This document shows, piece by piece, positions 26,303 to 51,928 of a stretch of 55,863 bases of DNA. The stretch's first letter is position 1, and every line of letters starts with the position of its first letter. The translations under genes were made by a program, and so were the position numbers. The notes beneath the pieces were generated by a model. It saw only the letters and a list, made by a program, of their open reading frames with translations. It did no database searches and was not told the DNA's origin. Source of the DNA: a virus; IMG/VR virus record IMGVR_UViG_3300047510_001699, positions 1 to 55,863 of that record; one strand, written 5' to 3'.

Positions 26303-26578
26303 ATGCATTTGCCCAAGAAACGGAAAAAGGAAGTAGTAGAAATGACGAAGGTAAAGAGTGATACAGTGCCACCCTCATTACGTCTTGACCTCAACGGGAA
26401 GGCACTGTTGATGTTGGATACCGATGAGTGGGGTCCGATTGAACTGCGTATTGATGATAAGGAAACTGCGGTAGAACTACTTCGGGTTATTGTAGATAAT
26501 CTGGGGAATATCTCTACTGTGGATTCATATACGAAAGCAGAGGGAAAGAAACTTAAGAAAATGGTGGAGGGGAAATGA
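26303..26578 (+). CDS. Hypothetical protein (91 aa)
   Basis: Has an AAGGAG SD. A basic N-terminus (KKRKKEVVEMTKVK) precedes a compact alpha/beta segment (LRLDLNGKALLMLDTDEWGPIELRIDDKETAVELLRVIVDNL). ATGA overlap with the cupin gene. No family is recognised. Confidence 0.55.
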   Translation: MHLPKKRKKEVVEMTKVKSDTVPPSLRLDLNGKALLMLDTDEWGPIELRIDDKETAVELLRVIVDNLGNISTVDSYTKAEGKKLKKMVEGK

Positions 26579-26934: not shown

Positions 26935-26935
26935 T

Positions 26936-27601: not shown

Positions 27602-27656
27602 CCCACTACTTATACTAGACGGGTATAGAAGGTTATAGACAGACAAGGGTTACATT

Positions 27657-27827
27657 ATGAGAAAAGACAAACACAAATATACTACCATTCAAATTAGTAA
27701 AGAAATAAACAAGCATATACGTGAATTCTGTAATAAGAATTTCGTAAATGCTGGACCATTGACAGAACACCTCTGGTCCAATTATATTTCTTCTAGTGTG
27801 AGTGGTAGTATTTCTTTACAGGGTTAA
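27657..27827 (+). CDS. Small RHH-like protein (56 aa)
   Basis: The pattern YTTIQISKEINKHIREFCNKN, a beta strand followed by helices, resembles ribbon-helix-helix DNA-binding proteins. It begins after the 55-nt gap that separates the small-gene operon from the glycan island and ends 4 nt before the first glycosyltransferase, so it might regulate that island. The domain call is tentative. Confidence 0.45.
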   Translation: MRKDKHKYTTIQISKEINKHIREFCNKNFVNAGPLTEHLWSNYISSSVSGSISLQG

Positions 27828-27831
27828 TATT

Positions 27832-30239: not shown

Positions 30240-30242
30240 TAT

Positions 30243-31577: not shown

Positions 31578-31978
31578 TGCCTCTACGTAGTGAACGCAGA
31601 TTTATTAGCCTAAGTAATGTAAAGTCTGGTATGATGATTCAGTTTAGCTATCAGAAAAAATCTGGTGGTGCTGGGTCGTATACTGTGTTGGTTATAGACC
31701 CGAATCGTAAAAGTGAACGGGCAACAGAACCACAGTTACATGGATTTGTAATTGAAGAACTTACCGATGCACAATTGATTGAATTTTTCGCTTCGTTCGG
31801 CACAAGTATTAATATGGACTATGACGACAGACGGGCAAGTGTAGTGGAGAATTTAAATACAGACGAAGCTTATAAAACATTTTCAACATCACCGTATGTA
31901 AAGGGCCGTTCATATCGTACATTTAATCTGAGCGGAATGTCGCAAGTTCGTCAAATCTTACTTGGCTCAGTAGACTAG
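31577..31978 (+). CDS. Hypothetical protein (133 aa)
   Basis: A beta-rich N-terminus (ISLSNVKSGMMIQFSYQKK, SYTVLVIDPN) is followed by a helical middle and FNLSGMSQVRQILL at the end. It may be an SH3-like small fold. It sits inside the glycan island with TAATG coupling but has no glycan-enzyme motif. No family is recognised. Confidence 0.55.
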   Translation: MPLRSERRFISLSNVKSGMMIQFSYQKKSGGAGSYTVLVIDPNRKSERATEPQLHGFVIEELTDAQLIEFFASFGTSINMDYDDRRASVVENLNTDEAYKTFSTSPYVKGRSYRTFNLSGMSQVRQILLGSVD

Positions 31979-31986
31979 GAGTGAAT

Positions 31987-32265
31987 ATGTCAGAAGAAAT
32001 TTGTCCACAAGAAGATTGTGTCCCTAAAGAGGACTTACCAAGTGCTATGGAAATGGCAAAGAATCTAATGCGAGATGGTACTAAAATTATTAAGAACGCT
32101 GTAGATGGTAACAAAACACTCGTTGAACAATTTGTAAGAGACAACAGGTGGTCTATTTGTGCTGAATGCCCGCGGCTGCAAAATGACAGATGTTTAGAAT
32201 GTGGATGTTTTATGAAGGTAAAAGTAGCATTTCAAACATCGGTATGTCCTTTAGGAAAATGGTAA
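31987..32265 (+). CDS. Small zinc-finger phage protein (92 aa)
   Basis: The ATG at 31987 follows AGGAG. The C-terminal half has CAECPRLQNDRCLECGCFMKVK and CPLGKW, a cysteine array known in many T4-like phages; function unknown. The N-terminal half is helical and charged and has its own CPQEDC pair. It precedes the FkbM-like gene by 1 nt. Confidence 0.65.
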   Translation: MSEEICPQEDCVPKEDLPSAMEMAKNLMRDGTKIIKNAVDGNKTLVEQFVRDNRWSICAECPRLQNDRCLECGCFMKVKVAFQTSVCPLGKW

Positions 32266-32266
32266 A

Positions 32267-32875
32267 ATGAATTTAGTACCCGTAACGAAGTATTTTTATC
32301 CGCACAGAATTTTAGATATCGGTGCGAACATCGGTCAGTTCCATCAAATAGCAAGAGCGTTGTTTCCAGATAGTTATATATTTTCTATTGAAGCTTCTGC
32401 GGCATGTGAACCAGCCTTACGACAAATCACCGACCAGTATCTTATTGGTCTTTTGGCAAAAGATGATTCAGTGTATAATTACTACACAAGAAAAGACACC
32501 GATACTTGTACAGGCAATTCTATTTATCGGGAGTTGACAGAATGGTTCTCTGATAGTAATTTAAAAGTAGTGCCCAAGCAAGGTAGACGATTGGATGATG
32601 TATTTAGCGATGACTCCGAATTTGACCTAATTAAAATTGATACACAAGGGTCAGAGCTTGATATCATAAGTGGTGGTAGGAATTTGTGTAGTAAGGCAAA
32701 AGGTATTCTACTAGAAGTGTCGTTAACACAATACAACGAGAACTCTCCATTAATATCAGAAGTACATGAATTTATGCAAAACTTTGGATATATGCCAAAA
32801 GAAATATTAGGTGAAAGTCGTAATATGCAAACTGGAGAAGTATTTCAGCACGATATCTTATACATTAAACAATAA
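32267..32875 (+). CDS. FkbM-family methyltransferase
   Basis: 202 aa. SAM-binding motif ILDIGANIGQFHQI, then acidic IEASAACEP, and the FkbM hallmark FDLIKIDTQGSELDIISGG. These enzymes O-methylate sugars in natural products and surface glycans. Its place in the glycan island suggests it caps or decorates a glycan residue. Confidence 0.85.
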   Translation: MNLVPVTKYFYPHRILDIGANIGQFHQIARALFPDSYIFSIEASAACEPALRQITDQYLIGLLAKDDSVYNYYTRKDTDTCTGNSIYRELTEWFSDSNLKVVPKQGRRLDDVFSDDSEFDLIKIDTQGSELDIISGGRNLCSKAKGILLEVSLTQYNENSPLISEVHEFMQNFGYMPKEILGESRNMQTGEVFQHDILYIKQ

Positions 32876-32882
32876 AGGAAAT

Positions 32883-33725
32883 ATGAAAGACTTAATAATA
32901 GGTGCAGCAGATAATTACGAATGGCAGCACGTTCGGATATGGGCAACATCAATCAAGCAATCTGGCTTCGAGGGAGATGTTGTTTTGTTAGCTTATAGAG
33001 TTACGGAAGAGCTTGTACGGAAGTGTCAAGAACTTGGCATATATGTCGTCCAAGTTGACCACGATGAAACTGGTGCTCCTATAAACCATAGATTGGGTAA
33101 TATTAATACACAATCACATAAGATTCGTAACTTCCATATCTGGCAATATCTATCCGATAATGACCCGTATCGTATGGTTGCTATCACAGATACTCGGGAC
33201 ATTTATTTTCAATCAAACCCCAGAATCTTCTTTGACAACCACCAAGAACACGATATCTATTTCCCAAGTGAATGTATTGAAATACGACACGAAGCGTGGA
33301 TATCAAGTATGATTAGTCATCTATTTGGTCCATTCATCCTAGATGCAATCAAACATAGCACCACCTGTAACAGTGGGACATTGTTTGGTAAGGGTGATGC
33401 AATTAAGCAATTGATGTTGAATATGTACTTAATCGCTAAGAACTTTTCTGCAACTGGGTCAGACCAACCAACGATGAATGTAATCAAAGAACTATTCCCA
33501 CCACAGAACTGTAAAGTACTTGGAATGGATGCTGGTTGGGCATGTCAATCTGGTGTTGTACTAGACCCAGAGAAGACGCACTACGTTCCGTTGCTGTTGG
33601 AACCACAACCAGTTATCAAAGACAAAATGGTATATAACAACGAAGGAACCTTATTTTGTATTGTCCATCAATGGGATAGAATTCCAGAACTAAAGTCTAT
33701 CGTGGCAGAGCGGTATGCAGTATAG
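32883..33725 (+). CDS. GT-A-type glycosyltransferase-like protein
   Basis: 280 aa from the ATG at 32883, 5 nt after AAGGA. It starts KDLIIGAADNYEWQHVRIWATSI and has ITDTRDIYFQSNP with a DxD-like metal site, then CNSGTLFGKGD, GSDQPTMN and VHQWDR, a layout seen in GT-A enzymes that act on processive or surface glycans. It overlaps the next gene by 11 nt. The donor is unknown. Confidence 0.7.
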   Translation: MKDLIIGAADNYEWQHVRIWATSIKQSGFEGDVVLLAYRVTEELVRKCQELGIYVVQVDHDETGAPINHRLGNINTQSHKIRNFHIWQYLSDNDPYRMVAITDTRDIYFQSNPRIFFDNHQEHDIYFPSECIEIRHEAWISSMISHLFGPFILDAIKHSTTCNSGTLFGKGDAIKQLMLNMYLIAKNFSATGSDQPTMNVIKELFPPQNCKVLGMDAGWACQSGVVLDPEKTHYVPLLLEPQPVIKDKMVYNNEGTLFCIVHQWDRIPELKSIVAERYAV

Positions 33726-34446
33726 TATTGTAATCTCATATCGTAACCGTGAAAACCATCTAGCTATCAACATCCCTAGACTTTACCAATATTTTACAAA
33801 GTTAAATGTTGACTTTGAAATTATCGTAGTTGAACAAAATGATTCCGAGCCATTCTGCCGTGGTCAATTGTTCAACGAAGGTGTAAAGATTGCCAAAGGT
33901 GATGTAATAATCATCCACGACATAGACCATTATCCTACCGACGGAACCAACTATACAGAGTTTACCACGGATGTGTTTCTTCCAATCGCAAAAGTAATCT
34001 ATGTTGATAACAATCTACAACCGAAACCATTGGACAAAGTTCCAAGTGGTTATCGGCATTTTAGAGAAGGCGTAGATTCCGATTTCTTTGGAGGCGTGTT
34101 GATTATTAAGAAAGATAAATTCCTTGACATCAATGGATTCTCGAATGTGTATGTGGGGTGGGGATTGGAAGATGCGGATATCAGAGAACGTATATTACAC
34201 TATGGATTGAGTATCAAGCGTTCTGACGCCAATACATTCTTTGCACTCGACCACCCAGATTCCGCACCAACACCAGGTGACGTTAACTTCTTAAACAATA
34301 GCCAGGCCTTTATGTATCGTGGACAATTATTGAAGTACGGAATAAAGTCACAACTAGCCGAAGTTGAAGAAGTAGTACCACCAATGAAAGAAATTAGTCG
34401 GTGGATAAAGGTTACAAATTTTGCTGCAAATGAGGATATGTTATGA
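33715..34446 (+). CDS. GT7-like (beta-1,4-galactosyltransferase-type) glycosyltransferase
   Basis: 243 aa. YSIVISYRNRENHLAINIPRL, EQNDSEPFCRGQLFNEG, IIHDIDHYP (DxD), and NGFSNVYVGWGLEDADIRERI. This order (R-N-R start, FNRG-like box, D-x-D, WGWGxEDxD) is that of animal-type B4GALT family 7. It likely transfers a hexose in a glycan built by the island. ATGA overlap with the next gene. Confidence 0.82.
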   Translation: MQYSIVISYRNRENHLAINIPRLYQYFTKLNVDFEIIVVEQNDSEPFCRGQLFNEGVKIAKGDVIIIHDIDHYPTDGTNYTEFTTDVFLPIAKVIYVDNNLQPKPLDKVPSGYRHFREGVDSDFFGGVLIIKKDKFLDINGFSNVYVGWGLEDADIRERILHYGLSIKRSDANTFFALDHPDSAPTPGDVNFLNNSQAFMYRGQLLKYGIKSQLAEVEEVVPPMKEISRWIKVTNFAANEDML

Positions 34447-35135
34447 AAATTTTATATAGAATCTCTGATGGTTCGTACAAGAAAGAACGATTTCAACATG
34501 CTACCAAACAGAATTGTATCGCAAACTTCTTGACACACTTTCCAAAAGAAGAAGTGACTATATATGCCGATAACGTTCGGGATGAAACACTCGAATGGAT
34601 TACCGCATTAGGATGTGAAACTATCCGTACAAATGGTGGAAGTAGTGCAGCGGGGTTCCGCATCGTCATGGACGCTGCATTAGAATTGGCTGATGATGAA
34701 TCCGTATACTTTGTAGAAGATGATTATTTCCATTTACAGAATTCCAGAAAAGTATTATTGGAAGGACTGGAGCGGTCACACTATGTTTCGTTATATGACC
34801 ACAGAGATAAATACATTCCAGCCAGTATGGGCGGTAATCCTTTTATCGAAGATGATGCAGCAGAACTCACTAAAGTTTTCGTTACCGATTCAGTTCATTG
34901 GAAACTTACCAATAGCACAACGATGACCTTTGCGACTAAGGTAGTAACATTAAAAGAAGATGCTGAGATTTGGAAGAAGTATACATCAGGCACCTATCCA
35001 CATGATTTCAAGTGTTTCCTTGAATTACGTGAGAATGGACGTACACTCGCCACACCACTACCAGGCTACAGTACTCACTGTGAACCAATGTGGGCATCAC
35101 CATTAATTGATTGGGAATCATGCGTACCTGCTTAA
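34443..35135 (+). CDS. GT-A-type glycosyltransferase-like protein
   Basis: 230 aa. KILYRISDGSYKKERFQHATK, then VTIYADNV, GCETIRTNGGSSAAGFRIVMD, and an acidic VYFVEDDYFH motif that fits the DxD nucleotide-sugar site. The later HDFKCFLELRENGRTL and a final CVPA complete it. It is similar in layout to GT2-like phage enzymes, although the exact family is not certain. It overlaps the next gene by 16 nt. Confidence 0.65.
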   Translation: MKILYRISDGSYKKERFQHATKQNCIANFLTHFPKEEVTIYADNVRDETLEWITALGCETIRTNGGSSAAGFRIVMDAALELADDESVYFVEDDYFHLQNSRKVLLEGLERSHYVSLYDHRDKYIPASMGGNPFIEDDAAELTKVFVTDSVHWKLTNSTTMTFATKVVTLKEDAEIWKKYTSGTYPHDFKCFLELRENGRTLATPLPGYSTHCEPMWASPLIDWESCVPA

Positions 35136-36010
35136 TAATATGTTATGGATACTTCGGTGACCATTTACATGCAAATGCTATTGCGGAACGTTTAATTACA
35201 GAAGGTCAATATGATGCGGTGGATTATGTAATAGGATTCCCACAAGTATATCCGTTCTTTGAGCGAAACACATATGTACGAAATGTATATATCGATGGAG
35301 TGGGACCAGCTCCACGCGTACGATCAAATGCAAATACTTATGATAAGGTGTTTCAGTTGGGGTCAATCAAACGAGTGGTACCACCACCGGTTGAAATGCA
35401 ATTATTGTGTGGTGTAAAAAATCCATCACCAACGTTTTATGTACATACCAATCCAGAACTAGATCAACTTGTTCGTGAATCTTATGGCGAAAAGACTGGA
35501 TTGGTTATTGGCATAATGAGTAACTGGAAAGAAAGGTCATTCCGTTTTACTAGGGAACAATACGACAGAGCCATCAATATACCCGACCTTGGATATGGTG
35601 GGGCACGTAGAGATACAGACTGGATTGTACAACAACTTGAATCGAAGTATAATACAATAGTTGTTGGTACATCGAGTAATGTAAACCAATTTACAGTAAA
35701 CCACGAAGGACCATCATTGGATTTGACAGCATCTATTTTGAAGTACTGTGATGTGTTCGTTGGTGCGGAAGGCGGTTTGGCAAACTTGGCATTTGCTGTG
35801 GGCACGGATACGATATTAACTTCTGATTTTATACATCAATTATACGGACCAAAGGGTGTAATACAACAAGTAGAGAAGCCTATGTGCGAACCAATACATT
35901 ATGGTGGTTCAAACACACATATAAACTTGGACCCATATCTTACAGATGAAGAAGCACTTTTACAGATTGTACAACATTTAGATAATAAAAGAACGGAGAT
36001 TGGAAAATGA
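35120..36010 (+). CDS. GT9/heptosyltransferase-like glycosyltransferase
   Basis: 296 aa; ATG at 35120 chosen over TTG at 35111. The start CLIICYGYFGDHLHANAIAERL and the late FVGAEGGLANLAFAVGTDTIL resemble ADP-heptose:LPS heptosyltransferase-type GT-B enzymes (D-x-L-x-x-t-P and G-x-x-x-G-x-x-H-x-A boxes), though the second box is diverged. ATGA overlap with the epimerase gene. A heptose donor is not proven. Confidence 0.65.
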   Translation: MRTCLIICYGYFGDHLHANAIAERLITEGQYDAVDYVIGFPQVYPFFERNTYVRNVYIDGVGPAPRVRSNANTYDKVFQLGSIKRVVPPPVEMQLLCGVKNPSPTFYVHTNPELDQLVRESYGEKTGLVIGIMSNWKERSFRFTREQYDRAINIPDLGYGGARRDTDWIVQQLESKYNTIVVGTSSNVNQFTVNHEGPSLDLTASILKYCDVFVGAEGGLANLAFAVGTDTILTSDFIHQLYGPKGVIQQVEKPMCEPIHYGGSNTHINLDPYLTDEEALLQIVQHLDNKRTEIGK

Positions 36011-37041
36011 AAGTATTAATTACTGGGGTGGCTGGATTACTTGGGTCACGAATGGCTGACTGGATTATTGAAAATCATCCAGAAGCTACAGTTATCGGTA
36101 TTGACGATTTAAGTGGCGGATACATAGAAAATGTTAATCCAAAAGTTATTTTCTATAATTTAGACTTGGGTAAAGAATCCTCTAATTTTATTTTCGAGCA
36201 TCACCGACCAGATATTGTATATCATTTTGCTGCATATGCAGCAGAAGCGCTATCTCCGTTTATTCGTCAATACAACTACACGAATAACCTTGTAGCTACC
36301 GCAGGTATTGTTAATAACTGCATTACCTATGGTGTCAAAAGATTGGTCTTTACTTCATCTATGGCAGTATATGGCAATGGAGTTCCTCCATTTGGTGAAG
36401 ACGCACCACGTAATCCAATCGATTCATATGGTATTGCGAAAATGGGGTGTGAGATGGATATTGAAATTGCAGGTGAACAACACGGTCTAGATTGGTGTAT
36501 TATTCGTCCTCACAATGTATATGGTGCCAAGCAGAATATCTGGGATAGTTACCGTAACGTATTAGGTATCTGGATGTATAAGCATTTAACTGGACAACCT
36601 CTTACTATCTTTGGTGACGGGCAACAAACCCGTGCATTCAGTTGTATAGACGATTCTATTGAACCATTATGGAGAGCGGCTACTGACCCGAAAGCATCCA
36701 AACAAATCATCAACTTGGGTGGTATCCACGAATATAGTATCAATGAAGCAGCAAATACGTTGATTGAGGTAATGGGTGGTGGTGAAATCAAATATCTTCC
36801 ACCTCGTCACGAAGTAAAATATGCATTCCCAACTTGGCAGAAGTCGGTAGATGTTCTTGGATTTGAACACAAGACTAATCTATTTGATGGGTTGACAAAG
36901 ATGTGGGAATGGGTTAAACTACAACCTAGTAGACCTCGCCAAGTGTGGGGTGAATACGAATTAAATAAAGGTATTTATTCATATTGGCAACAAGAAACAC
37001 TTAGGTCCGAAGCTCAGTCTTTTACAACATTAACTAAATAA
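36007..37041 (+). CDS. NAD-dependent sugar epimerase/dehydratase
   Basis: 344 aa. Extended SDR: MKVLITGVAGLLGSRM, DDLSGGY, HFAAYAAEA, TSSMAVYG, catalytic DSYGIAK, and IRPHNVYGAKQN with RAFSCIDDSI. It is like UDP-glucose/UDP-GlcNAc 4-epimerases (GalE/WbpP-type) but the substrate is not determined. Last nucleotide-sugar enzyme of the island; it may produce UDP-galactose-type donors for the GT7-like enzyme. Confidence 0.88.
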   Translation: MKVLITGVAGLLGSRMADWIIENHPEATVIGIDDLSGGYIENVNPKVIFYNLDLGKESSNFIFEHHRPDIVYHFAAYAAEALSPFIRQYNYTNNLVATAGIVNNCITYGVKRLVFTSSMAVYGNGVPPFGEDAPRNPIDSYGIAKMGCEMDIEIAGEQHGLDWCIIRPHNVYGAKQNIWDSYRNVLGIWMYKHLTGQPLTIFGDGQQTRAFSCIDDSIEPLWRAATDPKASKQIINLGGIHEYSINEAANTLIEVMGGGEIKYLPPRHEVKYAFPTWQKSVDVLGFEHKTNLFDGLTKMWEWVKLQPSRPRQVWGEYELNKGIYSYWQQETLRSEAQSFTTLTK

Positions 37042-37045
37042 AATT

Positions 37046-37762
37046 ATGTTATCTACACATGAAATTGTAAACGAAGCACGCAGGGTGTATGGTGTGCTAC
37101 ATCAGCAAGATGAAATGAATCAAACCTTAGACTTCTTGCGTACCAAGAATCTACGTGGATTTGTGGAAGTTGGTTCTGCGAATGGAGCATCGTTCCATTG
37201 TTGGGCATCGGTTATTTCTGAGGGAGTTAAGGTATCTGTAGATATGAACTTGGGGTTTGGTATGGGACCAAGTACGAATTCACCAGAATGGGATGAGGCA
37301 GAAAAAGGTATGGGAGACTTTGGTTGGAATCCAGAACTCGCTCAGATGGATTTTCCTGTAGCGAACGAAGCTAACTTCCCAACGGTTCAGACCCGTAACA
37401 ATAAGTGGAGAGAGCGGTTTAGCGATGTTCGTACCGTCGAAGGAAACTGTATGTCTCCCAATACCGTAGAAAAGTTACGCACTGTATTAGATGGAACATT
37501 AGTTGATTGGGTGTTTATTGATGCATGGCATAATATCGGTGGTATGATTACTGATTTCAATAACTACAATCAGTTCTTGACACCAAATGGCTATATGGGA
37601 TTCCACGATATTTACCAAACAAAGTCCACCACTCAGTTCTGGGAACTTATTAAAAAGACTTTCCCCAATACAATTGAGTTTACTGCGGGTACTGGTATCG
37701 GTGTACTTCCTGCGGAATCCATATCATCTACTGGCATTTATAAGTTACCATTACCAGTATGA
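37046..37762 (+). CDS. Class I methyltransferase, CmcI/cephalosporin hydroxylase-like
   Basis: 238 aa. GFVEVGSANGASFHCWASV binds SAM, SVDMNLGFG follows, and DWVFIDAWHNIGGMITDFNNYNQFLTPNGYMGFHDI is typical of the CmcI/TylF-like class. It likely O-methylates a sugar or a small metabolite. It is in the glycan island, overlapped with the next GT2 gene (ATGA). Confidence 0.78.
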   Translation: MLSTHEIVNEARRVYGVLHQQDEMNQTLDFLRTKNLRGFVEVGSANGASFHCWASVISEGVKVSVDMNLGFGMGPSTNSPEWDEAEKGMGDFGWNPELAQMDFPVANEANFPTVQTRNNKWRERFSDVRTVEGNCMSPNTVEKLRTVLDGTLVDWVFIDAWHNIGGMITDFNNYNQFLTPNGYMGFHDIYQTKSTTQFWELIKKTFPNTIEFTAGTGIGVLPAESISSTGIYKLPLPV

Positions 37763-38565
37763 TATCAGTTATAATTCCTACCTATAGGAATCCAAAGTAT
37801 TTAGATTTGTGCTTAAAGTCGGTTACCGAAAACAAGGTTCTGGATTCTACACAAGTTATCGTAGTAGTTGATGGGTACGTAGAAGAAAGCCAAGAAGTGA
37901 TGGCAAAGTATCCAACCGTTGGGTTTCTACCATTTGAACAGAATATGGGAATGCAGTATGCCATCAATGCGGGCGTGATGCAGACTGACACCGAATACGT
38001 ATTGGTCATCAACGACGATAATGTATTTCCTACCCGATGGGATGAACGATTGCTTGGTGTAATCGATTCGATGAAAGATAAAAACGTAGTGTTTACAGTC
38101 AGTCAAATAGAACCCACTGGGCCTGGAATGTTTAACTTTCCTGTAATGAATGTGGGACAATCAATTGACACATTTCAATACGAATTGTATCTTGAAAAAG
38201 AACCAATGTTCACCAGCGATATGATTACGCCGGACGGCCATATTTTTCCGTTCTTGATTAGCAAGAAACATTTTATGGCTATCGGGGGACTGGATACATT
38301 TTATAATAGTCCTAACATCTGTGATTGGGATTTCTTTTTGAAACTAGAGTTATTGGGATTTGAATTCCCACGGACACACCAATTACATTTATATCATTTC
38401 GGTTCAGTATCTACAAAGAAGAACGCCGAAAGTGCTACCTTCCGAGCCAAAGAACAGGCGGCAATAGAACAATATATGTGGAAGTGGGGAGCTCCGCCAC
38501 ACAATCAACCAGGCGTGAACAGTAAAGTCCCACCGACTAAACAATTTAGAGGGTTTCGTGTATGA
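37759..38565 (+). CDS. Glycosyltransferase, GT2
   Basis: 268 aa. Classic GT-A/GT2 start VIIPTYRNPKYLDLCLKSV, then VVVDGYVEE, EQNMGMQYAINAG, LVINDDNVFP (DxD-type) and the C-terminal CDWDFFLKLELLGFEF (E/D-x-D catalytic region). No membrane helices, so it is cytosolic. It ends the glycan island; ATGA overlap with the following Nmad1-like gene. Confidence 0.88.
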   Translation: MISVIIPTYRNPKYLDLCLKSVTENKVLDSTQVIVVVDGYVEESQEVMAKYPTVGFLPFEQNMGMQYAINAGVMQTDTEYVLVINDDNVFPTRWDERLLGVIDSMKDKNVVFTVSQIEPTGPGMFNFPVMNVGQSIDTFQYELYLEKEPMFTSDMITPDGHIFPFLISKKHFMAIGGLDTFYNSPNICDWDFFLKLELLGFEFPRTHQLHLYHFGSVSTKKNAESATFRAKEQAAIEQYMWKWGAPPHNQPGVNSKVPPTKQFRGFRV

Positions 38566-42723: not shown

Positions 42724-42753
42724 TAATGTATAACTCTTATGGAGGTTTATCTA

Positions 42754-43165: not shown

Positions 43166-43330
43166 ATGGAATTCGTACAAGAGATAGTCGGTGAACTACC
43201 TCTTTCAGAATTCCGGTCTGTGGCTCAGAAGGTCTTTTTAGGAAACTGGAATGTTGAGTTGTACTACGAAGCGATGGGACTTGATTGGGATGATGAAGTG
43301 GTGGAAAACGAAAACGACAACCTGGATTAA
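43166..43330 (+). CDS. Small acidic hypothetical protein (54 aa)
   Basis: An ATG 2 nt after the terminator T tract, with CGGAG upstream as a possible SD within the repeat. The product is acidic (DWDDEVVENENDNLD end) with a hydrophobic middle (QKVFLGNWNVELYYEAMG). It is the last plus-strand gene before the convergent cassette. Confidence 0.55.
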   Translation: MEFVQEIVGELPLSEFRSVAQKVFLGNWNVELYYEAMGLDWDDEVVENENDNLD

Positions 43331-43347
43331 GGTTGTCGTTTTTCTTT
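43313..43347. terminator. Bidirectional terminator between convergent genes
   Basis: AACGACAACC (43313-43322) pairs perfectly with GGTTGTCGTT (43331-43340) across an 8-nt loop, with TTTCTTT on the plus side and A-rich sequence before it (T-rich on the minus strand). It would stop transcription from both the 54-aa gene and the minus-strand glycosyltransferase. Confidence 0.8.
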
Positions 43348-45448
43348 ATAGTATCTTTTCTAGTTCTTTGATGACCATATCTGCGGTAATCTCACGGGAA
43401 CATTCGAATTGTCTCAGAGTTCCTTTGTGATCTGGGCACCAGTTCCAATCTCCGGCATCTAATCTGTGTCTATTAAAACATCCCGAACACTTACCTTCTG
43501 GTGCTGTTATACGAATGCAATCTTTCATTTCTGCCCAGTCGTATGAGAATCCACTGATGAGAACTGTAGGAACATTTAATGACCAACTTAACCAACTCAA
43601 TCCACTACCTAATCCAATAAATGCTTTTGAATTACGTAATTCTTGCATAACTGACTCTATAGGACCAGCGGGATGGCTAATTACTCCGGTCGGTACTTTG
43701 TTTCCCATATAGTCATTTCCTTCTTGGGAAAGTAATCGTACTGTGTATCCTTTTTTATTTAACCAATCCACCACTTGTTGCCATCCATCGGGATTGTTCC
43801 AATATTTAGCCTGTGAGGTAGAGTGTACAGCTATGCATACTTGTTTAGAATCAGTTATAGTTGCTTCTGGTGCTACTAATTTTGGTCGGATTTCTTCAAA
43901 CTCTAATCCTAAAATATCGGATGCGATTTGTTGTAATGGAATCTGGATAGGGTTTTGTGGATGCTTACTGTATTCTATTTGATTATTTGTATAGAATAGT
44001 CCGAATCTATATAGTGCGGTTAAGTTATTCACAGTCTGCCCAGGTTTTACGAATTCTATATCTGGATACTTGTTTTCAAATAGTTGATTCCAAAACGTAG
44101 AACACACCACTTTACATTCATGCTTCTTTCGGAATTCTTCTACGTATGGCATCCATGCTAATGTATCACCCAACGACTTTGATTCAAATCCGATTAGTAC
44201 ACGTTGGTGTTTTAAGTTCAAGTGGCATTCTGTCACTTCGTTAGTAGATAGATTTCGTATAACTACTTTCCAATCTACATAATATTTTTTAGATGTACGA
44301 GCCCAAGAATTATTTCCCATTTCTAGACTGTATACACTAGTGTTTGTTTTCTTATCTATAAAATCTACGTGATATTTTACGGACTTCTCCCCTAGTATTT
44401 CTAAAAATGCCCCATCTATTGCATGGAATGTTATTTTCGCATCATCCTTCATTACAAAATTTTTATGTTGTTTTGTAATTTTAGTATTAGAATAATGTTT
44501 TAATAGTTTGTCTTTCATAGAAGTACCACTCTCATATAGTTTTAATAATTCTTTTGTTCTGTTATACCACGATAACTCTTCTGCTTGGCGTTGTGCATCA
44601 AGATTGTATTGGGTGTAATCAGTAATTACCTCTTGAATGGCGGTAACTATGTCTGTCGTATTTCGTGTTATCTTTCTTACGCCTTTCAAATGATTGTTAT
44701 CTTCTAGTGTACCTACTACCGGTAATCCACATGACAATGCTTCTAACATTGTTAGATTCGGATGTCCTGCCTCCAATTCTGATGCATGTATGAATATGTT
44801 ATGATTTTGATATAAAGTCAATAGTTCTTCTTCTGACAAATCATAGAGAATTGTTAACTTATCATATGTTGGCGGATTCTTTTCGAAATAGTTTTTATTA
44901 TTGGATGGGCCGGCTATTGTAATTGGAAGATTTAATTCTTTCGCTACTTTTATTGCAATACCAAACCCCTTTCTATCTATAGATTGATTTCCAGCATATC
45001 CATTGTTGGCTACACACAATAATTTATGAGTATCGATTTGTTGTACATTTGGTGTAAAATATTCGGTGTTGACACCATGAGAAAAATACTCTGGAACTCC
45101 TTCAAAGTAATCCACTAAGTATTTTGCGGGGACAAATGATTTTATCGCTCCTTTCATTGCATTTATATTTTCTTGATATATCCACGAATCTTTTCCGTTT
45201 AAATAAGCATGGTGGTCATGCGTAGTAAAATAATAGGGAATCCCCCTCTCCTTTGCCATAAGAGCTAGATTTGCAACGTGAATGTGCACAATATCAGCAT
45301 CAGACGGAACGTCATCTAAATATGTTATGTGTGAATCATATCCCAACTTCTGTAGATTGAGATGCGTTTCCCATATTATTTTTTCGACAGCACCCCACCC
45401 ATTTGGAGGAATGGGAATTAGTCCTGGAGTTACATTAACTATTTTCAT
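43346..45448 (-). CDS. Two-domain glycosyltransferase: GT4 plus TibC/BAHT-like O-heptosyltransferase
   Basis: 700 aa. The N-terminal GT4 domain (1-310) starts KIVNVTPGLIPIPPNGWGAVEKII and has the donor box EAGHPNLTMLEALSCGLPVV. A small beta linker (about 325-420) follows. The C-terminal domain starts VLIGFESKSLGDTLAWMPYVEEF and has VCSTFWNQLF, DILGLEFEEIRPKL, FIGLGSGLSWLSW and a four-Cys finger (Cys654, Cys657, Cys671, Cys683; GDWNWCPDH). That matches bacterial autotransporter heptosyltransferases of the TibC/BAHT type, which O-glycosylate Ser/Thr on surface adhesins and bind iron in the finger. It is the last gene of the minus-strand cassette; the 14-nt overlap links it to the preceding GT gene. 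Confidence 0.85.
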   Translation of the reverse strand: MKIVNVTPGLIPIPPNGWGAVEKIIWETHLNLQKLGYDSHITYLDDVPSDADIVHIHVANLALMAKERGIPYYFTTHDHHAYLNGKDSWIYQENINAMKGAIKSFVPAKYLVDYFEGVPEYFSHGVNTEYFTPNVQQIDTHKLLCVANNGYAGNQSIDRKGFGIAIKVAKELNLPITIAGPSNNKNYFEKNPPTYDKLTILYDLSEEELLTLYQNHNIFIHASELEAGHPNLTMLEALSCGLPVVGTLEDNNHLKGVRKITRNTTDIVTAIQEVITDYTQYNLDAQRQAEELSWYNRTKELLKLYESGTSMKDKLLKHYSNTKITKQHKNFVMKDDAKITFHAIDGAFLEILGEKSVKYHVDFIDKKTNTSVYSLEMGNNSWARTSKKYYVDWKVVIRNLSTNEVTECHLNLKHQRVLIGFESKSLGDTLAWMPYVEEFRKKHECKVVCSTFWNQLFENKYPDIEFVKPGQTVNNLTALYRFGLFYTNNQIEYSKHPQNPIQIPLQQIASDILGLEFEEIRPKLVAPEATITDSKQVCIAVHSTSQAKYWNNPDGWQQVVDWLNKKGYTVRLLSQEGNDYMGNKVPTGVISHPAGPIESVMQELRNSKAFIGLGSGLSWLSWSLNVPTVLISGFSYDWAEMKDCIRITAPEGKCSGCFNRHRLDAGDWNWCPDHKGTLRQFECSREITADMVIKELEKIL

Positions 45449-47414
45449 ATCGGAATATTCCGTTATTCTTTAGTTTATGCTTAATATATTCCTCGTCTAT
45501 CAGTATAGTTTTTGTAGACAATATATCAACACTATCACGATTTTTCATTTCAAATCGTATTTCTTTTGTCGTGTGTAAATTGAATGGCCGGTGATATCGT
45601 GATATACCGTCAATTTGTATGGTATCTACTAAATCTCCGTTTACATATACCGATAAAATTCTACTATCTTTTTCGTTGCTCGAAGAATACCAAATCATAC
45701 CTTCTGTTTCGTTATTTTCAATAGGTAACACGGTAAAATATTCAATCATAGAACAAAGTTCTTCACTGGTCTTATTTATCTTATCGTATTCTTCATCGGA
45801 AAGGAATCGGATATCATGCGAAACATTCTTTAACGCGTGATACCACATATTTTCTATTCCGTTAGATTCGGAACCTACCTTATTCATCCACTCGGTATAC
45901 TCTTGTTCGTTATTGATTAAGGGAAAGTGTTCTAAGAAAAATTGTGTATTCAACCCAACACGTACAGTTAATATTGTATTACCTTCTTGATTTTTAACCT
46001 GTCGTGCCACTGCCTTTTTTTCACTTAGTCCCCGACGAAACATATTAATTTGCGTATCATCATTTAACAAGACATCATAGTTCCAACAATGTGCGTTTTC
46101 AAATCCCAATGAATGTGCTAGAGCTATCGCATTATAATATGCAGTATATACGGCAGGACCGTGGTATGTATTATTATTTTCTGCCGCAATATTTAGTTCT
46201 GCAAAATAATTTGGTGCCGTATACCATGCCCGTTGATAAAAAGTATGAGTAGTTAAGATATTGTTACTATCAAATATACAATAATCTACCAATTCCTGTA
46301 ATTCCGTTGGGATTGGAAAATGCGAACTTAGTATGATTGGAATATTTAGATGCTTGACTCGTAATATACAATCTTTAGTTATTTTTGTTGCTGCAGCAGT
46401 ATTAGGATATGCCGCAATTACAATACAGTCATTATATTTAATTTGATGATTACATAACTTTTCTGCGATTCTATATGCGTTTTGTTGTAAATCTTCTGTG
46501 AGATATTCAATCGTATCATATTTGTCGAAGTATCCCATATATACTGGAAGATTATAAATCAACGAGGGAATTTTCCATCCCAATGATTCACGGATGACCA
46601 GCGGCATTGTTTCTTTGTCGGTGTCGTTTCCGCGAGAAGTAAATAAGAATAGGTCGGCTGCTTCATAAAAACTATCAACGTCAGACCGCTCATTCCACCA
46701 TTTACAATTTGATGGAAAGTTCTGCATTAATGGTTCCCAATAACCTTTGAAGTTGTCGGCTTGATTTCCAATAAAATGAAATTGGATAGGATAATTTTGT
46801 AACTGTCTAGCGTATTCAATGATTTCCGCTTGATTCTTTCTTGGAGTAAACAATCCGACATTGATTACATGCTTGAGATTGGGGTCAAGACCTAAATCAT
46901 GTAATGCCTGCTCTCTAGTTTTGGTTCGTACTTTATTTTCTATCGGATACTCAACCAACTCTGTCGGAACTCCCAAGTGTTTATACATTTCTACTTGAAA
47001 ATTACTGACCATCAAGAACTTATCTGGAATGTACCGTTTATTGTTTATATTAAATGACGAATCATGTGAAGTTTCTATGAGAGAATATGACCGTTCGTTT
47101 TGATAGTACAATTTATGAGCAATATCTTCCTGCATGAATAGTTCAGGAATTTCTTCTAGATGAATAATATCTGGTTGGATTTGGTTGATTGTATCAAATA
47201 ACTTATGTTTATTTTCACCAAGTGTAATAACTTTTTCGCCCAACAATTTGACAATTTTGTTCCGTTGAACAACAAGAACCCCACCTGTCACATTATCCCA
47301 TTCAATACAATAGACCTCAACATCATCCTTAATGAGTTCTATTTTTTTGACGAGATATTGGGGCATTCCGCCCGTTGACAGATGGGGTGCGATAAAGACT
47401 ATTGTTTTTTTCAT
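45435..47414 (-). CDS. Multi-domain glycosyltransferase (GT4 plus a second domain)
   Basis: 659 aa. N-terminal GT4: TIVFIAPHLSTGGMPQYLVKKI, SNFQVEMYKHLGVP, INVGLFTPRKNQAEII, LFTSRGNDTDKETMPLVIRESLGWKIPSL. From about 345 a second domain (CIVIAAYPNTAAATKITKDCI, IPIILSSHFPIP, YNAIALAHSLGFENAHCWNYD) resembles a GT-A-type transferase, with a beta-rich C-terminal part (about 565-659). It lies between the structural genes and the TibC-like gene in one minus-strand unit, so it likely acts on the same target. Donors unknown. Confidence 0.78.
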   Translation of the reverse strand: MKKTIVFIAPHLSTGGMPQYLVKKIELIKDDVEVYCIEWDNVTGGVLVVQRNKIVKLLGEKVITLGENKHKLFDTINQIQPDIIHLEEIPELFMQEDIAHKLYYQNERSYSLIETSHDSSFNINNKRYIPDKFLMVSNFQVEMYKHLGVPTELVEYPIENKVRTKTREQALHDLGLDPNLKHVINVGLFTPRKNQAEIIEYARQLQNYPIQFHFIGNQADNFKGYWEPLMQNFPSNCKWWNERSDVDSFYEAADLFLFTSRGNDTDKETMPLVIRESLGWKIPSLIYNLPVYMGYFDKYDTIEYLTEDLQQNAYRIAEKLCNHQIKYNDCIVIAAYPNTAAATKITKDCILRVKHLNIPIILSSHFPIPTELQELVDYCIFDSNNILTTHTFYQRAWYTAPNYFAELNIAAENNNTYHGPAVYTAYYNAIALAHSLGFENAHCWNYDVLLNDDTQINMFRRGLSEKKAVARQVKNQEGNTILTVRVGLNTQFFLEHFPLINNEQEYTEWMNKVGSESNGIENMWYHALKNVSHDIRFLSDEEYDKINKTSEELCSMIEYFTVLPIENNETEGMIWYSSSNEKDSRILSVYVNGDLVDTIQIDGISRYHRPFNLHTTKEIRFEMKNRDSVDILSTKTILIDEEYIKHKLKNNGIFRYENS

Positions 47415-47441
47415 ATATTATAAAACCATTTAAATTAAAAG

Positions 47442-48755
47442 TTAGCAGTTTACTGTTCCTGTATTGTCTAGGTCGCCGCCGTCAGAACTCCACCACGTAT
47501 AATTGGATGGGCTGTTAGGTACATTTCCTCCAATATAATATCCAGCACCCACAGAAGTGCCTGATGTTTTTGAGGAAAATACTCTATATGCCCCAACTGC
47601 TAGTGTATATTGGTCGAGGATATAATTTGAATAATATGTAGCGGCGGTTACGTTATTTGTACAAAAATAATTAGACCCAATACCACCACCGGCGGCGATA
47701 AACTTTAGATTTTTTTGTTGAACTCGAAGTACTGTAGCCACCTGGGTCGATGAAATATCAGCTTGTATACCAGTGTGTGCAGGAATGACTGCATCTTTAA
47801 ACTTAACATCAGAATTACCTAATGTAAGCGCTCTTCCAGGTGCTGTCGGAGATGATAGGTCGGAGGTGTTTCCTAAATCCCAATCATATTGTAGTACTCC
47901 TTGCCCTGGATTATAATTGGTCAGTGTACGAGTACTACCGCCGGCCGGAGTTGCGGTCGCATTTAATATACTATCTCCTGCTAAGTCTGAAAGATATTCA
48001 TTAGTCCAATCAAATCTGACAAACACGCTATCAACCCCACTTTCTACCATCAATCCATCAGTTACGCTTCCTGCATTAAAATCAAGAGTAAATACACCAG
48101 CACCATTTGCTCTTGGAGCCGCAGTAAACGATTGAACTTGTCCTGGTGTGAAGTCATCCCACGCAAAATAATTTAAATCCACATCATGCCAAAGACCGTG
48201 TAGTGTGCGACCCGGGTTCGTTCCCAATCGTGTAAATGGACTACCATCTTCAGTATATGGTGGGGCTATAGGTGTTAGTCCACTTTTAGTTTTTTTAATA
48301 GAGTTTAGAACCGTATTAAGTGCATCACCTGCATCAGTATATAAAGTATCACTAATGGTGCCGCCGTCGGCGGGTGAAGCTGCGGTTAAGTTACCATCAT
48401 CAGTAAAGATTGATGAGGTTGGTCTTGTTCTAAAATCCGCAGGATACGCTACTCCTGGAATTGCCGTAGTTTTGTATACATTCGTCCACGACAAGTTTCC
48501 ACCACTTCTTGTAATATTGTTTACATTACCGGCAGTATTTGATTGTGGAATGATTGGACCTTGTGTCGGGTCTTTATTAACACCGTCGAGTTGTGCTTGC
48601 ATGGCATTTGACAAAGCTTCTCGTGCTGCTGCTAACACCGCATTCGAGGATGTAGTAGACCCAATAACTCTTCTTTCAAAAAAGTTTTCCGTTCCGCTAG
48701 TACCACCTAATGTAGCTTCGAATCCGTGGTTAAATCGTGCATAAAATCTAGCCAT
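47442..48755 (-). CDS. Virion structural / tail-fibre-like protein (437 aa)
   Basis: A Gly/Ser/Thr/Asn-rich, beta-type sequence with no enzyme motif: MARFYARFNHGFEATLGGT start, repeated short beta segments, and SNYTWWSSDGGDLDNTGTVNC at the end. Located between a small fibre-tip-like gene and glycosyltransferases. A consensus promoter and a TATTTATA box lie just upstream. The structural call rests on composition and context. Confidence 0.6.
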   Translation of the reverse strand: MARFYARFNHGFEATLGGTSGTENFFERRVIGSTTSSNAVLAAAREALSNAMQAQLDGVNKDPTQGPIIPQSNTAGNVNNITRSGGNLSWTNVYKTTAIPGVAYPADFRTRPTSSIFTDDGNLTAASPADGGTISDTLYTDAGDALNTVLNSIKKTKSGLTPIAPPYTEDGSPFTRLGTNPGRTLHGLWHDVDLNYFAWDDFTPGQVQSFTAAPRANGAGVFTLDFNAGSVTDGLMVESGVDSVFVRFDWTNEYLSDLAGDSILNATATPAGGSTRTLTNYNPGQGVLQYDWDLGNTSDLSSPTAPGRALTLGNSDVKFKDAVIPAHTGIQADISSTQVATVLRVQQKNLKFIAAGGGIGSNYFCTNNVTAATYYSNYILDQYTLAVGAYRVFSSKTSGTSVGAGYYIGGNVPNSPSNYTWWSSDGGDLDNTGTVNC

Positions 48756-48779
48756 AGTAATACTCTCAATTAATTATTA

Positions 48780-48808
48780 ATTATAACACTTCTATAAATA
48801 TCTGTCAA
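48780..48808 (-). promoter_or_regulatory. Perfect sigma70 consensus promoter (minus strand) containing a TATTTATA box
   Basis: Read on the minus strand: TTGACA (48803-48808), exactly 17 nt, TATAAT (48780-48785). It is a full consensus match. The spacer contains the TATTTATA box (48793-48800) within CAGATATTTATAG, shared with the element before the collagen-like fibre. It drives the 437-aa structural gene and the two glycosyltransferases. Confidence 0.82.
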
Positions 48809-48826
48809 GTAGACGTTTATGTTTAT

Positions 48827-49273
48827 TTAACACGTTCCATTACAGGTGCATGTTGAAATAAGAGTTCCCGAAGTTACTGTATAGCAATATACACGGTTTA
48901 TGTCTGCGTAATATGTGGTACCAGCATTCGCTGCTAACGTATTGCAAGTACTATCCGTGAATAATGTAGTTTGTCCTTGATTGTAATACAGAATAACGTC
49001 ACCGTCTTGAAGTTCTGCGCATGCATCAACGCATGACGTTGGGTTACTATCCATAAGTCCCAATTCTGTTGATGTTGCGTTATTATCGTAACTCCACCAT
49101 TCACTAATTGATGCAGGATTAGTCGCACTTGGTACTGGAACTGCACATTTATTAAGTGCGACATATCCACCATTTTCTGCGGTTTCTATAGAAAATGGAG
49201 ATTGTGACGATATACCCAATTCTATTCTGATATCATTGAAACTGATTGTATTTCCTGTACTCGGTAATACCAT
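48827..49273 (-). CDS. Small virion tip/fibre protein (148 aa)
   Basis: Begins with STGNTISFNDIRIELG and ISEWWSYDN, a start I recognise from phage tail-fibre and minor tail proteins. The C-terminal half is Cys-rich (SCVDACAEL, STCNTL, CYTV, CTCNGTC), unusual for a cytoplasmic protein, which suggests a disulfide- or metal-stabilised tip. It lies 3 nt after the collagen-like fibre gene. Confidence 0.65.
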   Translation of the reverse strand: MVLPSTGNTISFNDIRIELGISSQSPFSIETAENGGYVALNKCAVPVPSATNPASISEWWSYDNNATSTELGLMDSNPTSCVDACAELQDGDVILYYNQGQTTLFTDSTCNTLAANAGTTYYADINRVYCYTVTSGTLISTCTCNGTC

Positions 49274-49276
49274 AAC

Positions 49277-51928
49277 CTATTCCGTCCCTAATTTCTTTTT
49301 TAGTTCATCAATTTGTCGTTGTTGTTCCTTAATAGCTTCTATAAGTAACCCAACCATATTTCCATAGGCTACGGCGTATTGGTCGTTATTTTCTGCATAA
49401 CTTACAGCTTCTGGGACAATTTCTAGTACTTCTTGTGCGATTACACCCACGTTTCTCTTTTTAGTATCATCATCTTTTCTTGTGTAGTATACACCACGTA
49501 GCTGTAATACCTTTTTCAGTGCTTCATCTATCGTCACTACGTTTTCCTTGGAACGGGCGTCAGAATAACCAATGACGTTAGCAGTCGCGTAAATGTCACC
49601 AGTCACATGCAACTTATAACTTGGAGCAATGTTACCAATACCAACTCCTGTGCTGTCACTGTATATGGTTTGTCCACCACTTCCTAACTTAATTGCTCCC
49701 ACCGCACTATTTTGTGCGCCATATATTCCAAGAGTATTTGCTACGTTCACATCGTATAACGCTACGTCATCACCACCTTGGAAATATTTTGCACCATTCG
49801 TAGTTACGGATAATACCGACCCATCATATAACAATGATGAGTAACTGGTTAATGTGGTAGCTCCAGAGAATACTGCTACTCTTCCAGACGCACCACTACT
49901 AATAGTTCCTGCGCCGGAAGTTCCACTGGTACCATTGCCACCGTTTGCTCCAGATGTACCGGACGTTCCTGAAGTTCCGTTATTACCATTACCACCATTT
50001 GCTCCAGACGTTCCACTAGTTCCACTAGTACCATTTCCGCCATTAGCACCTGATGTTCCACTAGTACCATTTCCGCCATTAGCACCTGATGTTCCACTAG
50101 TACCATTTCCGCCATTAGCACCCGATGTACCAGACGTTCCACTAGTGCCACTTACACCGCTGGTACCATTACCACCATTTGCTCCAGACGTTCCACTGGT
50201 ACCATTGCCACCGTTTGCTCCAGATGTACCGGACGTTCCCGGCGAACCTACTCCACTTGTACCCGATGTACCAGCGGTTCCTTGTACACCAGGAAGCCCC
50301 ATCGCACCATCACGTCCACTGGTTCCACTTGTTCCTGGTGCACCGCCTGCTCCTGAAGTACCCGAAGTACCATTCTCTCCTGAGCTACCTGAGCTACCGC
50401 TTGTACCAGTAGAACCTGATGTGCCTGAAGTTCCAGAAGTACCAGAACTACCCGATTCTCCGCTTGAACCAGAACTGCCTGATGTACCGCTTGTTCCAGA
50501 AGTGCCTGAAATTCCTGATGTACCGCTCACTCCAGAAGTTCCATTTTCACCAGAAGTACCCGAGGTGCCACTTACTCCAGAAGTTCCATTTTCACCAGAA
50601 GTACCTGAGGTGCCGCTTATTCCTGATGTGCCACTAGCTCCCGATGATCCACTAGTACCTGACACGCCAGGCAACCCCATAGCACCATCTCTTCCTGATG
50701 AGCCTGAACTACCAGATGATCCTGTATTTCCTGAACTGCCCGATGACCCTGCACTTCCAGAACTACCACTACTACCAGCAGTACCAGAGGTACCCATTGG
50801 TAATTGGGCAACAATTAATAAAATATTTTCATCATTTGAGAATGAATATGTTGATTGAACTAATACTATTGGGAATGTCCAATATGCATTAGGTCCAGTT
50901 TCTACACCAGTCCCCACCGTCCATTTTTGAAAATTACTTGAATTATCTGCATCTTGTATTATTATCAACGACCCTGATGGAATAATAGCTAAGAAAATAT
51001 CTATATCTTCATTATTTTGGTCTAAATGACTTATGACAAGTTCTGTAGCTGATGCTTGTGTAGCGTTGTTCCAGAGGATATGACCACTACCAGGATTACC
51101 TGATGTTGCATTTGTGTTTGCTTGATATGGGAACAAGTCATTAGATTGACCATCTTTGCCAGAGCTGCCAGAGGAACCAGAAGAGCCATTTGCGCCTGAT
51201 GAGCCAGACGATCCCGATGAACCAGCGCTTCCGCCGCCGCCGGTTGGGCCTGGAAGGCCCATTGCGCCATCTCTGCCAGATGAACCCGATGACCCACTAG
51301 TGCCAGCTGTTCCACTGTTACCAGATGAACCGGATGACCCAGAAGTACCTGGATTTCCTTGTAGACCTTGTATACCTGGTAGTCCCATGGCGCCGTCTCT
51401 TCCTGAACTGCCTGATGATCCTGTAGTACCAGATGTTCCTGAACTTCCACTACTACCAGAAGAACCTGATGAGCCTGGGTCACCTTGTACACCTTGTATA
51501 CCAGGAAGACCCATTGCACCATCTCTTCCGCTTGAGCCTGAACTTCCTGAAGTGCCTGAGGTGCCGGTTCCACCAGAAGAGCCTGAAGTTCCTGCATTAC
51601 CCTGCGAACCTTGTACGCCGGGTAACCCCATCACACCATCACGACCACTACTTCCACTAGAACCAGCCGCACCATTTGTACCACTCGTGCCACTGGTACC
51701 GTATGTTTGTCCACTGGTTCCACTTGAACCCGCACTAGATGAACCTCCAACACCAGCGATTAGATATCCGCCAGGCCGTGTACCATCGTGTAATCTGAGA
51801 ACACCAAATCCACTTGATGTCGTAGATTCCATATCCGCAGTAAGAACGCCAGGCAATCCAACATACGCAGCGTTAGACCCTGACGTTCCTCGTAATATCT
51901 GAAATTCTGTGATATTATTATTTGGCAT
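49277..51928 (-). CDS. Collagen-like, Ser/Thr-rich tail fibre with S74 chaperone domain
   Basis: 883 aa. N-terminal attachment domain (about 1-60: FQILRGTSGSNAAYVG, VLRLHDGTRPGGYLI). Collagen-type Gly-x-y repeats (about 62-260 and 376-680) use mainly GSS/GTS triplets and hold six copies of GRDG(A/V)MGLPG. A globular insert breaks the helix at about 262-375 (VISHLDQNNEDIDIFLAII, FQKWTVGTGVETGPN). A beta domain leads to a C-terminal Peptidase_S74 intramolecular chaperone (about 788-883: YSDARSKENV with the Ser/Lys dyad, RNVGVIAQEV, and a final trimeric coil EQQRQIDELKKKL). S74 domains trimerise fibres and then cut themselves off. The dense Ser/Thr in the y position offers many O-glycosylation sites. 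Confidence 0.92.
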   Translation of the reverse strand: MPNNNITEFQILRGTSGSNAAYVGLPGVLTADMESTTSSGFGVLRLHDGTRPGGYLIAGVGGSSSAGSSGTSGQTYGTSGTSGTNGAAGSSGSSGRDGVMGLPGVQGSQGNAGTSGSSGGTGTSGTSGSSGSSGRDGAMGLPGIQGVQGDPGSSGSSGSSGSSGTSGTTGSSGSSGRDGAMGLPGIQGLQGNPGTSGSSGSSGNSGTAGTSGSSGSSGRDGAMGLPGPTGGGGSAGSSGSSGSSGANGSSGSSGSSGKDGQSNDLFPYQANTNATSGNPGSGHILWNNATQASATELVISHLDQNNEDIDIFLAIIPSGSLIIIQDADNSSNFQKWTVGTGVETGPNAYWTFPIVLVQSTYSFSNDENILLIVAQLPMGTSGTAGSSGSSGSAGSSGSSGNTGSSGSSGSSGRDGAMGLPGVSGTSGSSGASGTSGISGTSGTSGENGTSGVSGTSGTSGENGTSGVSGTSGISGTSGTSGTSGSSGSSGESGSSGTSGTSGTSGSTGTSGSSGSSGENGTSGTSGAGGAPGTSGTSGRDGAMGLPGVQGTAGTSGTSGVGSPGTSGTSGANGGNGTSGTSGANGGNGTSGVSGTSGTSGTSGANGGNGTSGTSGANGGNGTSGTSGANGGNGTSGTSGTSGANGGNGNNGTSGTSGTSGANGGNGTSGTSGAGTISSGASGRVAVFSGATTLTSYSSLLYDGSVLSVTTNGAKYFQGGDDVALYDVNVANTLGIYGAQNSAVGAIKLGSGGQTIYSDSTGVGIGNIAPSYKLHVTGDIYATANVIGYSDARSKENVVTIDEALKKVLQLRGVYYTRKDDDTKKRNVGVIAQEVLEIVPEAVSYAENNDQYAVAYGNMVGLLIEAIKEQQRQIDELKKKLGTE
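50039..50131 (-). repeat. 36-bp tandem repeat inside the collagen-like gene
   Basis: Two exact adjacent 36-bp units (50039-50074, 50075-50110) and a partial third, each coding for 12 residues of the form GANGGNGTSGTS. Similar near-copies lie at 49930-50030 and 50160-50230. Such runs are prone to slippage or recombination and can change fibre length in whole triplets. Confidence 0.75.

Follow-up and report, generated by a model that had tools for sequence, protein, structure and literature searches.

A minus-strand gene cassette of a T4-like phage that probably O-glycosylates a Ser/Thr-rich collagen-like tail fibre

Enzymes of the bacterial autotransporter heptosyltransferase (BAHT) family (TibC/AAH; TIGR04414) are protein glycosyltransferases by which bacteria add sugars to adhesins, encoded beside large Ser-rich surface proteins, and in TibC itself serine has been identified as the modified residue and threonine has not; the roles of its residues have been assigned, including an adenine contact by Arg286 whose loss abolishes or largely diminishes activity (PMC4358343). 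Glycosylation of virion proteins during infection is known from mycobacteriophages, where capsid and tail-tube proteins are modified and a shielding role has been proposed (Freeman et al. 2023, cited in PMC12619734), but there the sugars lie at the C-termini of those proteins rather than on collagen-like fibres, and the part of PMC12619734 available to us makes no mention of a TibC-type enzyme. In T4-like marine phages, glycosyltransferases likewise occur among fibre genes, in tail-fibre hypervariable regions, but they are explained as modifying the host O-chain, and the available part of that article reports no pairing with the type of fibre repeat (PMC7029224). A further parallel is found in the vent worm Riftia, whose cuticle collagen, according to passages in PMC6953826 and PMC10141479 that cite the work, has a triple helix stabilised by sugars linked to Thr rather than by hydroxyproline. 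Here we describe a block of five minus-strand genes (43346-51928) in a viral record, IMGVR_UViG_3300047510_001699, of 55,863 bases (hereafter the window, meaning the whole stretch of DNA analysed), whose DnaB-type helicase, family B polymerase, ribonucleotide reductase and virion structural protein identify its source as a T4-like phage. We consider it highly likely that this block encodes a phage system for O-glycosylation of Ser, perhaps also Thr, on a collagen-like tail fibre.

The central enzyme is a 700-aa fusion whose N-terminal half is a GT4 glycosyltransferase (PF00534 and PF13692, both above cut-off) and whose C-terminal domain matches TIGR04414 (hepto_Aah_TibC) at 291.2 bits against a cut-off of 200. 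Profiles of lipopolysaccharide (LPS) heptosyltransferases stay below their cut-offs on the same protein (heptsyl_trn_I 31 bits, cut-off 185; RfaC 20 bits, cut-off 437), and the difference between 31 and 291 bits rules out a WaaC/RfaC identity for this domain. Pfam TibC_1st matches weakly (14 bits, cut-off 27); in a phmmer search of the PDB the domain retrieved only TibC, the best entry being 4rap (E 7e-57). An AlphaFold model of the fusion (mean predicted local distance difference test score, pLDDT, 86.8), with beta-barrel strands at residues 338-421, found TibC in all of its top 21 PDB chains by Foldseek (4rap/4rb4, E 1e-26 to 5e-31, TM-score 0.83-0.87 by target). The catalytic Asp110, the phosphate-contacting Thr226 and Lys230 and the sugar-contacting Trp305 (TibC numbering) are all kept in the window enzyme, as are the four cysteines of the iron finger; across 90 aligned viral-type members Asp110 is present in every one and each finger cysteine in 89, and Thr226, Lys230 and Trp305 are near-invariant in phages. 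The earlier note's reading of the C-terminal domain as TibC-like rather than as an LPS heptosyltransferase is thereby borne out by profile, cysteines and predicted structure, and by predicted fold and conserved chemistry the window enzyme is a BAHT-type protein glycosyltransferase.

What the phage enzyme shares with the BAHT family is thus the fold, the catalytic Asp, the phosphate and sugar contacts, the iron finger and a gene position beside a large Ser-rich surface protein. It differs in being viral, in its fusion to another glycosyltransferase and in its partner, which is a collagen-like phage fibre and not a beta-helix autotransporter; the five-gene block holds no autotransporter. Elsewhere, viral TibC domains are fused to GT2, FkbM or other methyltransferase modules. 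In a tree of 47 rows, the cellular TibC enzymes form a single clade (100/100), and the window enzyme and the viral ones fall outside it; the viral enzymes are deeply diverse and the collagen-associated lineages are scattered through them. With the cellular side sampled by 31 pattern-scan matches, a virus-specific TibC branch is a provisional reading of this tree. The overlapping 659-aa gene encodes a second glycosyltransferase, which the earlier note had called two-domain: its N-terminal GT4 domain is clear, but the C-terminal half has no Pfam match and folds at moderate confidence in the AlphaFold model (pLDDT 83.7), and Foldseek matched the model to GT4 enzymes mainly over the GT4 part.

The proposed acceptor is an 883-aa protein with strong matches to Pfam Collagen (E 1.8e-58, in 8 stretches) and Peptidase_S74 (E 3e-15), in which an anchor-like N-terminal segment is followed by a collagen region, a non-collagen insert, a second collagen region and a C-terminal S74 intramolecular chaperone. 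Its 161 Gly-X-Y triplets carry Ser or Thr at 61% of X and Y positions and Pro at 3%; X is mostly Thr or Ser and Y mostly Ser, and GRDGAMGLPG blocks recur among the triplets. These family matches and this composition identify a collagen-like S74 phage tail fibre, as the earlier note had it, and a Gly-Ser/Thr repeat so poor in proline might also take up another glycine-rich fold.

The association of the two genes extends far beyond the window. We compared 68 viral TibC loci with 80 loci anchored on GDP-mannose dehydratase (GMD) and 80 anchored on GT4, two other sugar genes of the window phage, counting a collagen as Ser/Thr-rich if at least 60% of its X and Y positions are Ser or Thr. A collagen gene lies within 10 kb of TibC in 29 of the 68 loci (24 of the 29 within 3 kb), and 26 of these collagens are Ser/Thr-rich; neither control set has a collagen within 10 kb (0/80 and 0/80; Fisher 3e-18, raw loci). 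Grouped at 70% identity, 10 of the 19 viral lineages in the scan have a neighbouring collagen, and two or three more have one elsewhere in the record. The reverse comparison, which took 50 records each of Ser/Thr-rich collagen, other collagen and GMD among the matches listed, gave TIGR04414 matches over cut-off in 17, 1 and 0 records, respectively (Fisher 3e-5 and 3e-6), and, when only records of 50 kb or more were counted with E <= 0.001, in 14/20, 1/21 and 0/26 (Fisher 1e-5 and 2e-7). The absence of TibC from all 50 GMD records also leaves GMD without support as a member of the cassette. In 14 of 18 positives no more than 5 kb separates the Ser/Thr-rich collagen from TibC; the records reach 299 kb, and the two genes occur in either orientation to each other. 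Summed over the TibC-linked collagens, Ser makes up 74% of Y positions, Thr stands mostly at X, and Pro is nearly absent. The pairing therefore recurs in many unrelated phages and is absent from the anchored control loci, and the co-occurrence with Ser/Thr-rich fibres that the earlier note proposed to look for proved strong and specific against three controls.

Such a pattern could arise by hitchhiking or sampling if both genes were simply common in one group, the large freshwater T4-like phages, and many of the loci are indeed interrelated, with collagen samples limited to the matches listed. We give this explanation hardly any weight: the adjacency is tight even in contigs as long as 299 kb and in either orientation, the TibC domains reach down to 36-41% identity with that of the window, the long control records are nearly or wholly devoid of the enzyme, and the fibre repeat and the enzyme change together inside one phage lineage, as described below. 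Two contigs binned as cells, L513 (Candidatus Nitrosotalea) and L530 (uncultured bacterium), have TibC adjoining a Gly-Ser/Thr collagen, and both are probably misbinned phage; the cellular members L514, L515 and L518 have TibC beside large Ser/Thr-rich adhesin-like genes, the arrangement expected for the family.

The same-locus comparison comes from two close relatives of the window phage, G173 and G181, with a TonB-type gene 97% identical (G173), thyX at 84% and cobT at 73%. At the syntenic site, from the thyX/HNH genes to cobT, they carry an orthologous fibre, which shares the N-terminus MPxNNITxFQILRG and GLPG blocks with that of the window, together with homologues of the 437-aa and Cys-rich proteins; neither glycosyltransferase was matched among the open reading frames (ORFs) of this locus. 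Their collagen is Gly-Pro-Gln in type, with a Ser/Thr fraction of 0.12-0.14 and a Pro fraction of 0.22; in the window and in locus L003, where both glycosyltransferases are present, the fractions are 0.61-0.69 and 0.03-0.04. A scan anchored on cobT for further contrasts returned only four loci, L003, G173, G181 and L589, the last with no fibre at its cobT locus.

This contrast bears on two further explanations. The enzymes might remodel the host's LPS or some other glycan of its surface and so exclude competing phages, their proximity to the fibre reflecting a shared hypervariable region for host recognition. Published precedent exists in the marine T4-like phages described above and in a huge-phage 'heptosyltransferase I' read as LPS-directed (PMC10747093), and the window phage has many further sugar genes. 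Yet the enzyme belongs to the protein-modifying TibC branch with its iron finger and not to WaaC/WaaF, the association is specific to Ser/Thr-rich collagen rather than to collagen or sugar genes at large, and the fibre repeat changes with the presence of the enzyme at one and the same locus; we therefore regard modification of the host surface as improbable. We think it equally unlikely that the enzyme acts on another phage or host protein, such as the 437-aa protein or a second tail protein, with the Ser/Thr-rich collagen a mere neighbour. The 437-aa protein is itself rich in Ser, Thr and Gly and shares a promoter-led unit with both enzymes, and some TibC loci that have no Ser/Thr-rich collagen carry other large Ser/Thr-rich proteins, for example a 2319-aa ORF in L015; but the Gly-Ser/Thr repeat is the partner that recurs across lineages, and the relatives that have no enzyme retain homologues of the 437-aa protein, while the type of repeat changes.

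Several observations weigh against glycosylation of the fibre. Gene adjacency by itself is no proof of substrate. The collagen samples are non-random, and the metagenomic records are partly fragmentary and not fully independent. About one third of the long Ser/Thr-collagen records have no TIGR04414 match among the matches listed; two records, G151 (76 kb) and G164 (161 kb), have TibC and no collagen match in the record; and in G116 the collagen near TibC is Pro-rich, with none of the Ser/Thr-rich type. The same-locus contrast is clean, and G173 and G181 are nearly one phage, which makes it effectively a single evolutionary event. Finally, Arg286 is replaced by Val in the window enzyme, and the position is variable and for the most part hydrophobic among the 90 viral members (V50, R17, T12, L6, I5), in contrast to Arg in 23 of 23 cellular members. 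Because of this replacement and variability, the nucleotide-sugar donor may be other than ADP-heptose.

We propose that the infected cell would synthesise the fibre as a Gly-(Thr/Ser)-Ser repeat nearly devoid of proline, and that the TibC-family domain would bind this repeat, probably as a ring-shaped iron-finger oligomer like that of TibC, and move a sugar from its nucleotide-sugar donor to Ser hydroxyls and possibly to those of Thr. We infer Ser to be the main site because TibC modifies Ser and not Thr and because Ser predominates at Y in the TibC-linked collagens. The earlier note had BAHT enzymes heptosylating both residues; its statement stands for Ser, but Thr was not identified as modified in TibC, and we set Thr aside as an unproven acceptor (PMC4358343). 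The fused GT4 domain and the 659-aa glycosyltransferase would then extend the sugar, a role suggested by the variation of the fusions among GT2, FkbM and other methyltransferases, and in other phages the GT2 or methyltransferase fusions would diversify the glycan. The S74 domain would trimerise and mature the fibre, and the sugar-coated rod would enter the virion, where the glycan may stabilise the proline-poor rod, shield the fibre, tune the use of receptors, or do several of these. Stabilisation of the rod is suggested by analogy with Riftia, which differs in that its collagen is an animal extracellular protein and that the phage repeats have Ser dominant at Y and Thr mostly at X. A bolder version of this scheme, which we offer tentatively and find doubtful as a whole, holds that glycosylated Ser/Thr replaces proline as the stabiliser of the collagen rod, that a virus-specific TibC branch has a donor pocket shifted away from ADP-heptose, and that the locus toggles between Gly-Pro-Gln without the enzymes and Gly-Thr/Ser-Ser with the cassette.

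The organisation of the locus is summarised in Table 1. All five ORFs named in the earlier note are present, in the 5' to 3' order of 883, 148, 437, 659 and 700 aa, with gaps of 4, 72 and 28 nt along the block and a 14-nt overlap of the last two genes, and plus-strand genes, convergent or divergent, stand on both sides. The earlier note took the five as one block; they probably form two transcription units, because a perfect match to a sigma-70-type promoter sits in the 72-nt gap and is conserved in L003. It lies on the strand of the 437-aa gene and ends 25 bases upstream of it; the match is at the equivalent place in L003 and is absent from G173 and G181, the relatives without the enzymes. 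The hairpin just past the fusion gene is a possible two-way terminator, judged by its palindromic form. The T4 late-promoter motif TATAAATA gave no informative pattern at the block. For the two small neighbours of the fibre, searches of Pfam, NCBIfam and PHROGs gave no family: the Cys-rich composition that the earlier note gave to the 148-aa protein is confirmed, but its placement at the fibre tip has no family match behind it, and the 437-aa ORF is likewise present, but the label 'structural' is a guess.

Table 1. Coordinates of the cassette, its flanks and the sugar gene block in the window
Feature	Position	Strand	Basis or remark
Sugar gene block (cupin isomerase, GT4, GDP-mannose dehydratase, GT4, FkbM methyltransferase, GT7-type, GT2-type, epimerase, others; about a dozen)	26575..38565	+	
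thyX	41345-42028	+	flank before block
HNH-like gene	41898-42656	+	flank before block
Small gene	42739-43095	+	flank before block
14-bp hairpin with T-tail	43310..43343	+	just past fusion gene; palindromic
GT4 + TibC fusion, 700 aa, proposed fibre O-glycosyltransferase	43346..45448	-	profile, sequence and model searches
TibC/BAHT domain (TIGR04414 hepto_Aah_TibC), residues 333-699	43352..44452	-	profile, PDB, Foldseek
Iron finger Cys654, Cys657, Cys671, Cys683 (= TibC Cys339/342/358/370)	43400..43489	-	alignment
Glycosyltransferase, 659 aa, proposed glycan extender	45435..47414	-	GT4 (GT-B) N-terminal domain, PF00534 E 6e-11
437-aa protein	47442..48755	-	homologues: 60% identity in L003; 32-36% at same locus of G173/G181
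Sigma-70-type promoter match TTGACA-17-TATAAT, perfect	48780..48808	-	in 72-nt gap between Cys-rich and 437-aa genes
Cys-rich protein, 148 aa	48827..49273	-	homologues adjoin fibre in L003, L004 and TibC-less G173/G181
Fibre gene, 883 aa	49277..51928	-	Pfam Collagen, Peptidase_S74; PHROG tail fibre families
Peptidase_S74 chaperone domain (residues 789-842)	49403..49564	-	Pfam
Collagen-like region 2 (residues ~375-690)	49859..50806	-	sequence; residue numbers approximate
Collagen-like region 1 (residues ~60-270), repeated GRDGAMGLPG blocks	51119..51751	-	sequence; residue numbers approximate
cobT-like gene	52104-54248	divergent from block	far flank

The plus-strand sugar block possibly supplies the fibre glycan, but related genes also occur in phages that have no TibC. 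Within it, a small protein (35111-36010) has a weak, short TibC/GT9-like match. No ADP-heptose pathway was recognised among the genes scanned, in a contig that is possibly incomplete and with no search dedicated to it. The window carries other cargo as well. A plus-strand gene at 8133-11339, between the DNA polymerase and ligase genes, encodes a 1068-aa outer-membrane beta-barrel protein of the Oar/TonB-dependent receptor type, with a signal peptide and a carboxypeptidase-regulatory domain, and GC skew dips over it; copies 87-98% identical in eight viral contigs rule out a misassembly, and on this evidence it is a real phage gene and an unusual cargo. Also on the plus strand are a Mom-family DNA-modification protein (20005-20850; PF25680, E 2e-46) and a protein homologous to DruA from the Druantia defence system (15158-16339; PF14236, E 3e-35).

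Among isolated phages, Microcystis phage Mel-JY01 (L590, PP395634.1) has both genes, which makes the idea testable: its Gly-Thr/Ser-Ser fibre and its TibC fusion, the latter bearing no annotation but 'methyltransferase FkbM', are 1.7 kb apart. The fibre ORF (2-3049) has at least 1016 codons at the start of the record, apparently continuing from a 771-codon frame at its end; it is largely unannotated, with minus-strand hypothetical proteins annotated across part of it. A huge phage of 735 kb likewise has both TibC and a Ser/Thr-rich collagen; in a third phage record from GenBank, the 10 kb on either side of the TibC domain hold no collagen of this kind. Phage-encoded virion glycosylation and BAHT enzymes are each known, and their combination is apparently new as far as the open literature searched shows: the papers on TibC found there do not deal with phages and those on phages do not deal with TibC, a scope to which most subscription papers and all bioRxiv preprints are external.

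Where phages encode glycosyltransferases close to their tail fibres, annotation often makes them modifiers of LPS or DNA, and our findings offer the alternative that they decorate the phage's own fibre. If this is true, protein O-glycosyltransferases would gain a viral branch whose acceptor is of the repeat type, and the proline-less collagens of many phages would be accounted for. Such a system would bear on phage-host recognition, on the durability of virions and on the immune recognition of phages.

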